The notes under the pieces are model-generated. The model did no database searches. It had not been told where the DNA came from and saw nothing but the letters and a program-made list of their open reading frames with translations. DNA of 64,000 nucleotides from Chloroflexota bacterium. Lineage in GTDB: Bacteria; Chloroflexota; Anaerolineae; J102. Below are positions 27,039 to 32,571 of this stretch, in pieces. A program made the translations under genes and the position numbers. The stretch spans positions 1 to 64,000 of the forward strand of contig JAADII010000144.1 in assembly GCA_013151415.1 (NCBI GenBank). The letters run 5' to 3'. Within the stretch, counting starts at the first letter, position 1. Every line of letters starts with the position of its first letter.

Positions 27039-28709
27039 TTAACTTCCGGCTGCATGCCGCGCAGCCAGATAACCAAAGGTCATGGCCGGGCCGATGGTCG
27101 CGCCCGCGCCTGGATAGCTGGCGCCCATAACCGAAGCCATGCTGTTGCCGGTGGCGTAGAGTCCGGGAATGGGCGTCCCATCCTTGCGCAATACGCGCGC
27201 CCACTCGTCGGTGACCAATCCGCCCTTGGTCCCCAGGTCGCCCGGCCACATGCGCACAGCATAATATGGGGGTCTGGTCAGGGGCGCCAGGTTGGGGTTG
27301 GGCTTGACGGTGGGATCGCCGTAATAGCGGTCGTAGGCGCTCTCCCCGCGCCGAAAGTCTTGATCCACGCCCGCGCGAGCGAATTCGTTGAAGCGGCTCA
27401 CCGTCTCCACCAGGTTGGCTGCATCCACGCCCATGAGCCGGGCCAATGCTTTCAGGTTGTCGGCCTTGACAATATACCCATTTTCCAGGTGGCGCTTGGG
27501 TATGGGTTGCATGGGAAAGAACAGCCCGAAGATATATTTGTTGCGATACCGCTGGTCGAAAATGAACCAGGCCGGAATGTGGGGCGTTTCCGGGCTATGA
27601 TTGGCGTACATGGCGTGGACGACATCGATGTAAGGCGCAGATTCATTGACAAAACGACGGCCAAGGCCGTTGACCATGAGCGCGCCCGGATACGCTCGCT
27701 CGGCCACGTGGAAGAAAGGCGCTTCGTCCGGCGGTTTGGAGCTTGGCCCCCACCAGGCCTCCTCCATAAGGTCTACGGCCGCGCCGGCTTTCATGCCCGC
27801 GCGAATGGCGTCGCCTGTGTTCCCAGGGCTCGCGACGCTCCAGTCGGTGGATGTGGGCTTGGGCAAATATTGTTGGCGCATGGCCAGATTATGCGGAAAG
27901 CCGCCCGCAGCCAGCAACACGCCTCGGCCAGCCCGAATGCGAAGCGGGCGCGCCTCTCGCTCGACCCGCGCGCCCACGACGCGATCTTCTTCGATGATCA
28001 GCTCCTGCAATGCCGCATCCAGCCACAGGGGGATGTCCGCTTGCATCATGGCGTAGCGCAATCTTGCACTGAGCGCCTGCCCCATGGTGAGCTCGCGCAC
28101 GCCGGATAGGCGATGTTTCAACCAGCGCAGCCCGACCCGCAAAGCCCTCTTTTTCCCTTCCCAAGTGGACATGAACATGCCGATCTGGCGATAATCTGCG
28201 GCCGTGAACGCCAGACCCGCGGGCGCTTCGGCCATGGGTTTGCGCAAACGCGCCAGTTCCGGCCCTAGTTTGCGGCCATCGAAAGGAACCGGCTCCAGTG
28301 TGCGTCCCGCGACCAGCCCGCCGGGCCGCTCGGGATAATAATCGGCATAGCCGGGCACGCGCTGGAAGCGAACGCAGGTGTGATCCCGCAGCCATGCCAC
28401 CATCTGGGGCGCGTGGACCAAATACGCGTCTTGGAGCGATTGGGGCGAGCGGTCGCCCACGGTGTGTCGCATGTATAGCCGCGCTTGTTCCAGAGAATCC
28501 TCGATCCCGTCCTGGGCCAGCAGATAGTTGTTGGGAACCCAGATCGCGCCGCCCGAACGGGCTGTGGACCCGCCGAAAAAGCTCGTCTTTTCAATGACCA
28601 GCACATCCATGCCCGCCTCTTTGGCCATCAGGGCCGCGGTCATCCCCCCACCGCCCGATCCGACCACCAGGAAGTCCACGGTTTTGTTCCAAACACTCGC
28701 CGCGTTCAT
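27039..28709 (-). CDS. FAD-dependent oxidoreductase, 3-ketosteroid-delta1-dehydrogenase-like
   Basis: DFLVVGSGGGGMTAALMAKEAGMDVLVIEKTSFFGGSTARSGGAIWVPNN; C-terminal GLYATGNSMASVMGASYPGAGATIGPAMTFGYLAA. Confidence 0.85.
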   Translation of the reverse strand: MNAASVWNKTVDFLVVGSGGGGMTAALMAKEAGMDVLVIEKTSFFGGSTARSGGAIWVPNNYLLAQDGIEDSLEQARLYMRHTVGDRSPQSLQDAYLVHAPQMVAWLRDHTCVRFQRVPGYADYYPERPGGLVAGRTLEPVPFDGRKLGPELARLRKPMAEAPAGLAFTAADYRQIGMFMSTWEGKKRALRVGLRWLKHRLSGVRELTMGQALSARLRYAMMQADIPLWLDAALQELIIEEDRVVGARVEREARPLRIRAGRGVLLAAGGFPHNLAMRQQYLPKPTSTDWSVASPGNTGDAIRAGMKAGAAVDLMEEAWWGPSSKPPDEAPFFHVAERAYPGALMVNGLGRRFVNESAPYIDVVHAMYANHSPETPHIPAWFIFDQRYRNKYIFGLFFPMQPIPKRHLENGYIVKADNLKALARLMGVDAANLVETVSRFNEFARAGVDQDFRRGESAYDRYYGDPTVKPNPNLAPLTRPPYYAVRMWPGDLGTKGGLVTDEWARVLRKDGTPIPGLYATGNSMASVMGASYPGAGATIGPAMTFGYLAARHAAGS

Positions 28710-29176
28710 GAGTCCAGCGGCTCCAACACCACGACTTTGAAGGTGCGAACGCTGCGCTCCTCCATCATTTGCCAGGCGGGAAACATGTCGATCAAATGGG
28801 GCCAGAGTTCGGCTTTTTCCTCGTCTGTTGCGACATGGGCCTGCATATTGCGCCGTTCACCCTGCACCTCGATGGTCACCTGAGGATTGGCCTTGAGGTT
28901 CAGTAGCCAGGCCGGATCGCTGGATGTGCCGGCATTGGACGCCACCAGAATGTATTTCCCCTCCCGCTCGAGATAGAAAAGCGGTTTGGTGCGGGGCTTG
29001 CCCGATTTGCGACCGATGGTGGTGAGCAGGAGAACGGGCGCGCCCAGAAAGGTGTTGCCCCAACGACCCCTGCTGAGCTTTAGCGCCCAAATATTGCCAA
29101 GGGTGATCAGTTTGCGCAGGAATTTCAACAGCGCTTCATGCCAAATGGTGAATTGATTCGTCGCACTTTGAGACAT
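28706..29176 (-). CDS. Nitroreductase/F420-dependent (DDN-like) family protein
   Basis: GAPVLLLTTIGRKSGKPRTKPLFYLEREGKYILVASNAGTSSDPAWLLNLKANPQVTIEVQGE. Confidence 0.85.
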   Translation of the reverse strand: MSQSATNQFTIWHEALLKFLRKLITLGNIWALKLSRGRWGNTFLGAPVLLLTTIGRKSGKPRTKPLFYLEREGKYILVASNAGTSSDPAWLLNLKANPQVTIEVQGERRNMQAHVATDEEKAELWPHLIDMFPAWQMMEERSVRTFKVVVLEPLDS

Positions 29177-29316: not shown

Positions 29317-31713
29317 TTACAGCCGCATTTGCGAGCTGTGCGGAGGCGTGATCTTCTCCTCGGGGTTCAGATCATGACAGGCGTGATTCACGGCCAAGGC
29401 GGCCTGGCCCAACCCGGTGGCGATGAGCTTGAGGTTGGCGCTGCCCTCCTGCAAGGCCACATCGCCGATGGCGTACACGCCCTCGCGGCTGGCGCGCATG
29501 AAACCATCCACCTTGATGTAGTTCTTTTCCATGTCCAGGCCCAGGTCGCGCACGAAACGTTTGTCGGCTCGGAAGCCCAGGGCCAGCAGCACCGCGTCCA
29601 CGTCCAGCTCGGTTTCCTCGCCCGTGCGATTGTCGAAGATCACGGCCGATTCCACCTGACGTTTGCCTTTCACCTCCTTTAGTTCGTGGAACAGGCGCAC
29701 ATCCACATCGCTGGCCTGCAACTCGGCCACATTGGCCGGCGCGGCGCGGAATTCGTCGCGTCGGTGGATGAGCGTGACCTGATCGGCCCAATCCTTGAGA
29801 TTGAGCGCCCACAACACCGCGGTGTCGCCGCCGCCCACCACCAGGACCTTCTTTCCGCGCAGTTTGGCCCGCTCGCGCAAGGCGTAATACACGCCTTTGC
29901 CCTCCAGCCGTCGCACCGAGGGGTTGTCCAGTTTCTTGGGCGTGATCGCGCCAATGCCTGCGGCGATGATCAACCGGCGGCCGCGGTGCGTCTCGCCTTT
30001 GTTGTCCTTGACTTCGAACACGCCGTCGCTAACATGCACGGATTCTGCGCGGCGGTTGGTTACGATCTCCACATCCGGTTTGAAGCGTTCGGCCTGCGAG
30101 CGCAAGGCGTTGGCGAATTCGGCCGCGCCCACCTTCAAAAAGCCGGGCGCGTCGTAGATGGTCAGCTCGGGATAGAGCGTGGACAGTTGGCCGCCCACCA
30201 CAGGCAGCGCCTCGATCACGCGGGTTTTCATCTTGCGCAAACCCGCATAGAACGCAGCATACAAACCGGCCGGCCCGCCGCCAATGATGAGAATGTCCTT
30301 GGTTAGCGCTTCGATGGCCTTGTGCAAAGCCTCGAACATGGCTTTCACTGATGTGAACTTGACGCGCGGCCGCCCTAGCGCCTTGCCCGCCTTCACCTCG
30401 GCCGCGTCGATCAGCTTCCAATCTTGCCATGAGACGTATTTGATCCCGCGTGCGTCAAGCAGCTCGACAATGGCCTCGGGATCGGCCTTTTCATCGTCCG
30501 CGGGCGTGATGGCGGGAACGTCTTCCAACATAAGGCGAACTGTGGCCACTGCATCGGGCTTGTTGGTGCCGATGACGCCCGTTGGACCGCGCTTGGCCCA
30601 GCCCACCACATATTCGCGGGGAACCACCTCGCCCGTCTCATACACGGTCACGCGGCCATCCTCGTTGGAAATGATGCCCCAACGTTCGTGGAATGGCACG
30701 CCTGGCAAAGGCTGACCGCGATAACCGATGGAGCGCATGATCATGCCCACATCGAGATATTCGTATTCGCCAGTGCCGTGCGAGGCCAGATAGCCGGTCT
30801 CGGTCGCTCGCAGTTCATTTCGCTCCAGGCGCACCCGCACGACTTTGCCCTCCTCATCGCCGTAAATCTCGACGGGAGAGCGCAAAAACAGGAAGTGAAT
30901 GCGCTTGGGACGACCCGACGGCCCCAGCTCGGCATAGTGCCGCATGATTTCCAGGTTGGTCTGGGCCTCGCGGTTGTCTGCAATCGCGGCTGCGCTGAGC
31001 GGGTCTAGCTCCAACTCTTTGGGGTCGATGATCACATCGGTGACCTCCAGCTCGGCCAGCTCGCGCAGTTCGGGATTGGTGAATTTCACCTGCGCGGGGC
31101 CGCGGCGGGCGATGATGTAAATATCCTTGATGTTGCTGTTGCGCAGCGCCTTCAGCGCGTAGTCCGCGATGTCGGTCTTCTCTAGCTCGGCCGGCGAAAG
31201 CGCCATGATGCGCGCCACATCCATGGCCACATTGCCCACGCCGATGACGGCCACGCTCTCGATGGAAAGATCGAATGTGAGGTCCGCGTAATCGGGATGA
31301 CCATTGTACCAGGCCACGAAATGCGTGGCGGGATGGCTGCGCTCCAGGTCTTCACCGGGAATATTGAGGCGACGATCGGTCTGCGCGCCCACTGCATAGA
31401 TCACCTGGTCGTAATATGCTAGCACGTCGTCGTGGGTGATGTCTTCGCCAAAAGTGACGTTGCCGAAAAAGCGAAAACGAGGGTCCTCGGCGATGCGGTC
31501 ATAGAGTTTGGTGACCGACTTGATTTTTTGATGATCGGGCGCGACGCCATATCGGACCAGGCCATAAGGCGCGGGGAGATGGTCGAATATATCGACCGAA
31601 ACCTGATAATCGCTTTGGCTGAGCAACGCCTGGGCTGCATAAAAGCCCGACGGGCCCGCGCCGATAATGGCGACGCGCAACGGGCGTTCTTCGGTGCCTA
31701 TTTTGCTCGTCAT
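29317..31713 (-). CDS. Double ferredoxin-NADP(+) reductase fusion: FprA/adrenodoxin-reductase-type N-terminal half and thioredoxin-reductase-type FNR C-terminal half
   Basis: N-half VAIIGAGPSGFYAAQALL, LPAPYGLVRYGVAPDHQKIK, VGNVAMDVARIM; C-half DILIIGGGPAGLYAAFYAGLR, VVGGQLSTLYPE, VLVVGGGDTAVLWALNL, GVYAIGDVA. Confidence 0.9.
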   Translation of the reverse strand: MTSKIGTEERPLRVAIIGAGPSGFYAAQALLSQSDYQVSVDIFDHLPAPYGLVRYGVAPDHQKIKSVTKLYDRIAEDPRFRFFGNVTFGEDITHDDVLAYYDQVIYAVGAQTDRRLNIPGEDLERSHPATHFVAWYNGHPDYADLTFDLSIESVAVIGVGNVAMDVARIMALSPAELEKTDIADYALKALRNSNIKDIYIIARRGPAQVKFTNPELRELAELEVTDVIIDPKELELDPLSAAAIADNREAQTNLEIMRHYAELGPSGRPKRIHFLFLRSPVEIYGDEEGKVVRVRLERNELRATETGYLASHGTGEYEYLDVGMIMRSIGYRGQPLPGVPFHERWGIISNEDGRVTVYETGEVVPREYVVGWAKRGPTGVIGTNKPDAVATVRLMLEDVPAITPADDEKADPEAIVELLDARGIKYVSWQDWKLIDAAEVKAGKALGRPRVKFTSVKAMFEALHKAIEALTKDILIIGGGPAGLYAAFYAGLRKMKTRVIEALPVVGGQLSTLYPELTIYDAPGFLKVGAAEFANALRSQAERFKPDVEIVTNRRAESVHVSDGVFEVKDNKGETHRGRRLIIAAGIGAITPKKLDNPSVRRLEGKGVYYALRERAKLRGKKVLVVGGGDTAVLWALNLKDWADQVTLIHRRDEFRAAPANVAELQASDVDVRLFHELKEVKGKRQVESAVIFDNRTGEETELDVDAVLLALGFRADKRFVRDLGLDMEKNYIKVDGFMRASREGVYAIGDVALQEGSANLKLIATGLGQAALAVNHACHDLNPEEKITPPHSSQMRL

Positions 31714-31741
31714 CGTTGGTTGCCTCCTGGGGGGACAGTAA

Positions 31742-31929
31742 GGTAATGGGGTATTGGGGGTATTGGATATTGGGGTATTGGGGTATTAGGTATTGGGGTG
31801 TTGAGGTGTTGATATTAGGTATTGGAGGTGTTGGATATCAGGATGCCAAAAGCGCAATTCGACACAAAACGATGCCCAATATCCAAATATCCAGTATCCA
31901 ATATCTAATATCCAATATCCAGTATCCAA
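31742..31929. repeat. Low-complexity TATTGG-word region facing CCAATATC-word region (large imperfect inverted repeat)
   Basis: Left gtattggatattggggtattggggtattaggtattgg; right cccaatatccaaatatccagtatccaatatctaatatccaatatcc. Confidence 0.8.
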
Positions 31930-32268: not shown

Positions 32269-32571
32269 TCAACTCCTTTGGCGACGTTGCAAAGCCTTGG
32301 AGAAAGCAGAGATTGCGCCTGTCACCTGGCTGATCTTTGTCTCCGTCTGGATGATGGGATCGGTGACTTTTTGGCTATATTCGCGGCTCATTTTCGAGGC
32401 GAGGCTGGTGTATCGCTGCGCTTGAGGCAAGCCGATCCGTCGCAGCCAGCGCGCGGCCTCGCGCGTATACTTATACGAAAAATAGAGCGCGACGCCCAAG
32501 ACCAGGACGATGACAATGCTCTCGATGGCCAGGAAAATGAGGGCTAGATCTCTGCCGGTGGCTAGATTCAT
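32269..32571 (-). CDS. Small single-TM hypothetical protein
   Basis: 100-aa ORF, one TM segment LALIFLAIESIVIVLVLGVALYFSY, adjacent to the previous small gene. Confidence 0.5.
   Translation of the reverse strand: MNLATGRDLALIFLAIESIVIVLVLGVALYFSYKYTREAARWLRRIGLPQAQRYTSLASKMSREYSQKVTDPIIQTETKISQVTGAISAFSKALQRRQRS

Follow-up and report, generated by a model that had tools for sequence, protein, structure and literature searches.

Two families of ferredoxin-NADP reductase (FNR), the FprA/adrenodoxin-reductase type and the thioredoxin-reductase (TrxR) type, have the NADPH/ferredoxin reaction in common (PMC4518329; PMC9137726). The flavin site of the TrxR type has been described for the B. subtilis FNR, whose flavin contacts are Tyr50, Asp57, Ile296 and His324-Ser325. 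Tyr50 stacks on the si-face of the flavin, Asp57 hydrogen-bonds the flavin N3, His324-Ser325 belong to a C-terminal extension over the re-face, and Tyr50 mutants are strongly slowed (PMC10526003). FNR-like modules also occur fused to another redox module, as in P450 reductase, P450BM3 and flavohaemoglobin, where the reductase is joined to its own electron acceptor or carrier (PMC9687028). The protein described here differs from such diflavin reductases and related FNR fusions in that it joins two reductases of equivalent function.

The window, a stretch of 64,000 nucleotides of Chloroflexota DNA, carries this fusion gene on its reverse strand (Table 1). A sequence-only reading had proposed that two evolutionarily distinct FNR types share one chain, and phmmer and Foldseek assign both halves in this way. 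In phmmer searches of the PDB, residues 10-458 matched M. tuberculosis FprA (1lqt, E = 1.6e-122) and bovine adrenodoxin reductase (1cjc, E = 4.5e-90), and residues 472-795 matched the TrxR-type FNRs 2zbw (E = 1.1e-81) and B. subtilis 3lzw (E = 1.5e-70). Foldseek searches with an AlphaFold2 model returned 1lqt_A for the N-half (E = 2.8e-50, TMt 0.89), and 2zbw_A (E = 3.3e-39, TMt 0.75) and 3lzw (E = 8.2e-38, TMt 0.79) for the C-half. Residues 10-460 are like FprA and adrenodoxin reductase in fold, FAD/NADP motifs and 2'-phosphate arginines; M. tuberculosis FprA has no second FNR, whereas the fused protein has a complete one at its C-terminus. Residues 472-798 share fold, flavin contacts and HSS tail with the TrxR-type FNRs of B. 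subtilis (3lzw), T. thermophilus (2zbw) and C. tepidum (3ab1). Those enzymes are free-standing, whereas the fused C-half has its N-terminus joined and carries D634L, W724L and 18 further changes. The AlphaFold2 models (pLDDT 84-85) predict a helix at residues 456-470 (pLDDT ~90) that continues directly into the C-half's first strand; their pTM is 0.70-0.73, and the modeled placement of one half relative to the other is therefore not firm.

Table 1. Features of the fusion gene and its surroundings (window coordinates; residue numbers refer to the fused protein).
Feature	Position	Strand	Evidence or remark
FAD_binding_2 oxidoreductase, downstream of fusion	27039-28709	-	Pfam
F420H2-dependent-quinone-reductase-like gene, downstream of fusion	28706-29176	-	Pfam
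Terminator-like hairpin directly after the fusion stop codon	29263..29294	-	14 pairs, T tail, strong
FprA/TrxR-type FNR fusion gene	29317..31713	-	start codon ATG; 798 aa without internal stop; complete in 10 distinct genomes
C-half, residues 472-798: TrxR-type ferredoxin-NADP reductase	29320..30300	-	phmmer, alignment, Foldseek
H792-S793 (B. subtilis FNR His324-Ser325), C-terminal extension	29335..29340	-	alignment
L634	29812..29814	-	alignment; Asp in 22/22 standalone FNRs (GGGDSAVDW)
C-half NADP motif GGGDTA (627-632)	29818..29835	-	alignment
D521 (B. subtilis FNR Asp57)	30151..30153	-	alignment
Y514 (B. subtilis FNR Tyr50)	30172..30174	-	alignment; lost in L002 and L090
C-half FAD motif GGGPAG (478-483)	30265..30282	-	alignment
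Junction, residues 456-471	30301..30348	-	AlphaFold2 models
N-half, residues 10-460: FprA/adrenodoxin-reductase-type ferredoxin-NADP reductase	30334..31686	-	phmmer, Foldseek
R203 R204, aligned with FprA R199/R200	31102..31107	-	phmmer alignment
N-half NADP motif GVGNVA (158-163), then conserved D165	31225..31242	-	alignments
N-half FAD motif GAGPSG (18-23)	31645..31662	-	sequence; kept in all fused and single FprA
100-aa putative membrane protein, one hydrophobic N-terminal stretch, upstream neighbor	32269..32571	-	tblastn

The peptides cited in the sequence-only reading (LPAPYGLVRYGVAPDHQ, GGGPAGLYAAF and GGQLSTLYPE) are all present, and its claim that both halves have FAD and NAD(P) motifs holds. 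The N-half has the FAD GxGxxG, GxGNVAxD, the RRGP arginines and a GTNK segment; R203/R204 presumably contact the 2'-phosphate of NADPH. The C-half of the window protein keeps the flavin contacts Y514, D521, F525, I764, H792 and S793, and its H650-R651-R652 stretch supplies candidate 2'-phosphate arginines. C779 is the only cysteine in the chain, which leaves neither an Fe-S relay nor a disulfide of the thioredoxin reductase kind. The C-half does not belong to thioredoxin reductases themselves: it has no CxxC and scores 193 bits with TIGR01292 against a cut-off of 343.

The fusion is real. An artefact of assembly or a frameshift near position 30300 is extremely improbable and was rejected, since in ten distinct sequences from separate assemblies (those left after identical proteins were dropped) the halves meet at the same junction and are spaced alike. 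Both component families are known, and the domain architecture is new. In the literature searched, which excepted most subscription journals, we found no description of a fused member and no biochemical data on one. Among 20 genomes searched from the window's order, 10 carry the full-length fusion, two the FprA half alone (G003 and G004), one a decayed copy (G007), and seven gave no match at the threshold. A scan of genome contigs returned six full-length fusions among the best 80 loci, all from Chloroflexota (labeled Caldilineales, Caldilineae, Anaerolineae or Chloroflexota) and all also found in the search of the order. Outside this Chloroflexota family no such fusion was found among the genomes searched, which for the contig scan means the best 80 loci.

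In the tree, the fused C-halves form one clade with support of 100/100, apart from 22 standalone FNRs. Thus, judging from sequence, the gene most likely arose by a single fusion event in the ancestor of one Chloroflexota family. The two unfused sister genes (L005 and L006, from G004 and G003) branch within the fused N-halves without a resolved position, and on loss versus original absence of their C-half the N-half tree gives an AU p of 0.133, which is no decision. No C-half remnant was found behind these two genes and no close C-half copy elsewhere in their genomes, and the absence may predate the fusion. A recent fusion of operon partners was considered and rejected: no unfused relative among the best 80 loci has a TrxR-type gene beside fprA. 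The decayed copy in G007 (L093, 1501-2286) has a stop at codon 25, a deletion of residues ~170-387 and an end within the linker.

The two halves have not been conserved equally. Of the positions that 93% or more of the standalone FprA (38 relatives) have in common, the N-half has lost none. In the C-half, 20 positions that standalone FNRs conserve carry another residue in 80% or more of the eight intact fused copies; these include D634L and W724L (Leu in 8/8 each), F768 and the G719-P720 pair. The alignment shows D634, P720, W724 and F768 retained even in the distant Thermus and Bacillus FNRs. In the two degenerate fused copies, residue 634 is Leu (L002) and Gln (L090); the Asp at this position is a feature conserved in relatives and no published criterion of a TrxR-type FNR. 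In L002 and L090 the C-half, still in an open frame, further lacks both Y514 and the tail with H792-S793. dN is 1.6-3.2x higher in the C-half than in the N-half, a rough ratio because dS is often near saturation, and dN/dS is below 0.35 wherever dS is computable. This purifying selection in the intact lineages indicates that the C-half has some specific role. At the same time, a C-half that is altered, degenerate or absent in relatives has the look of a passenger, redundant or put to new use, and not of a new bifurcating machine.

The distribution of the two reductase types across genomes bears on whether they are equivalent. When the same sample of 298 genomes of the class was searched with each half, 85 Anaerolineae genomes outside the window's family had the FprA type and 36 the TrxR type (matches of at least 41% identity plus one split gene). 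None had both, where ~11 would be expected by chance. Among 111 Deinococcota genomes, FprA occurs in 59, a TrxR-type FNR in 49 and both in none. The Fisher values, 2e-6 for Anaerolineae (computed with n = 284 for the genomes outside the family, where the exact n of 278 changes nothing material) and 2e-28 for Deinococcota, are too small because the sampled genomes are related and not independent. Four families (f4, f33, f39 and f45) each hold both FprA-only and TrxR-type-only genomes, and these switches make the exclusivity more than one ancient split. One exception is another Chloroflexota genome (G614), which has both types; the window's own genome has an additional, separate TrxR-type FNR on contig C75 (42% identity). 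Such near-exclusivity across the Anaerolineae and Deinococcota sampled points to a cell requiring one type or the other, and thus to the fusion joining functional equivalents.

The hairpin that follows the fusion suggests that the gene is probably transcribed apart from the F420H2-quinone-reductase-like gene downstream. This gene, the FAD_binding_2 gene and a UDP-glycosyltransferase gene (Pfam) on the same side were not matched at any other fused locus examined. By tblastn, the small upstream gene adjoins the fusion in 8/10 fused genomes and also, in the sister genus (L005/L006), the unfused fprA. Its product gave no match in a Pfam search; the idea that it might be a ferredoxin was rejected, as it is a small putative membrane protein instead. 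Weak matches to it occur at two fprA loci (L029 and L054) and at a standalone TrxR-type FNR locus (L116). Between this gene and the fusion start lies an imperfect palindromic repeat, (TATTGGGG)n followed by (CCAATAT)n, at 31741-31929; it folds better than shuffled sequence (z -3.63). The TATTGGGG triplet repeat also occurs elsewhere in this genome, on contigs C36, C84, C152 and C190, with 0 occurrences in a reversed control.

The explanation that we favor, with a somewhat better than even chance of being right, is an FprA-type reductase that has captured at its C-terminus a functionally equivalent, now diverging TrxR-type FNR. The N-half would be the housekeeping NADPH-ferredoxin reductase: as in its family, NADPH would pass a hydride to the N-half FAD, which would pass single electrons to free ferredoxin. 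After fusion the C-half may have become redundant as the main reductase and so have diverged; it retains its FAD and NADP motifs and in most members is probably still a flavoprotein. TrxR-type FNRs are homodimers, and the likeliest present roles of the C-half would be to form homodimers, to offer a second reductase site that is auxiliary or ferredoxin-selective, or to do both. For the fused protein we infer reaction, direction and dimerization by analogy.

If both halves were instead fully active, the protein would be a bifunctional hub serving different ferredoxins or running NADPH/ferredoxin transfer in opposite directions. The window protein's C-half has every documented flavin-contact residue, dN/dS is well below 1, and ferredoxin-like domains are numerous in the genome, which also has two P450 genes. 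However, the four residues that even Thermus and Bacillus FNRs retain (D634, P720, W724 and F768) are changed in the window protein, several relatives have a degenerate or absent C-half, and no ferredoxin gene adjoining the fusion was found, so that we consider such a hub possible but unlikely. Still less likely is a C-half acting purely as a structural or regulatory pseudo-reductase that, without turnover, dimerizes or stabilizes the FprA half or uses its flavin to sense redox state. It would fit the C-halves of L002 and L090, open and selected yet without Y514 and the H792-S793 tail, and the disappearance of the Asp of the NADP motif from every fused protein; the flavin residues present in most members, the window's included, argue against it.

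The sequence-only reading had also raised bifurcation-like chemistry, and this did not survive the comparison. Bifurcation calls for two acceptors that differ in potential and, as a rule, for Fe-S clusters. NfnAB, also a large flavoprotein with an FprA/GltD-like Rossmann pair, gave a local match to residues 9-170 in the phmmer search of the PDB. Fe-S clusters and an NADH half are part of Nfn; the fusion, in contrast, has one cysteine and two halves that are both FNR types. Since NADPH/ferredoxin is the couple of both families, there is no exergonic/endergonic pair to couple, and as far as the residues tell, bifurcation is without basis in the fused protein. Two FAD and two NADP motifs per chain and a short linker predicted to be helical would suit a bifurcating or intramolecularly wired enzyme, but the single cysteine rules out an Fe-S relay, the halves share one redox couple, and L005/L006 manage with the N-half alone; we regard such an enzyme as very improbable. 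Any electron exchange between the two flavins would probably go via ferredoxin and not along a wired intramolecular path.

The captured domain might also have become something new for this enzyme class, namely a redox-sensing or dimerizing pseudo-reductase domain modulating the FprA half, with intact, active-site-dead and absent states across one family; we hold this more specific proposal to be rather unlikely. As a natural experiment, the fusion family bears on redundancy, on domain capture and on the birth of pseudo-enzymes in flavoproteins, and the fusion itself is a ready-made two-flavin construct with which to ask whether linked reductases exchange electrons.
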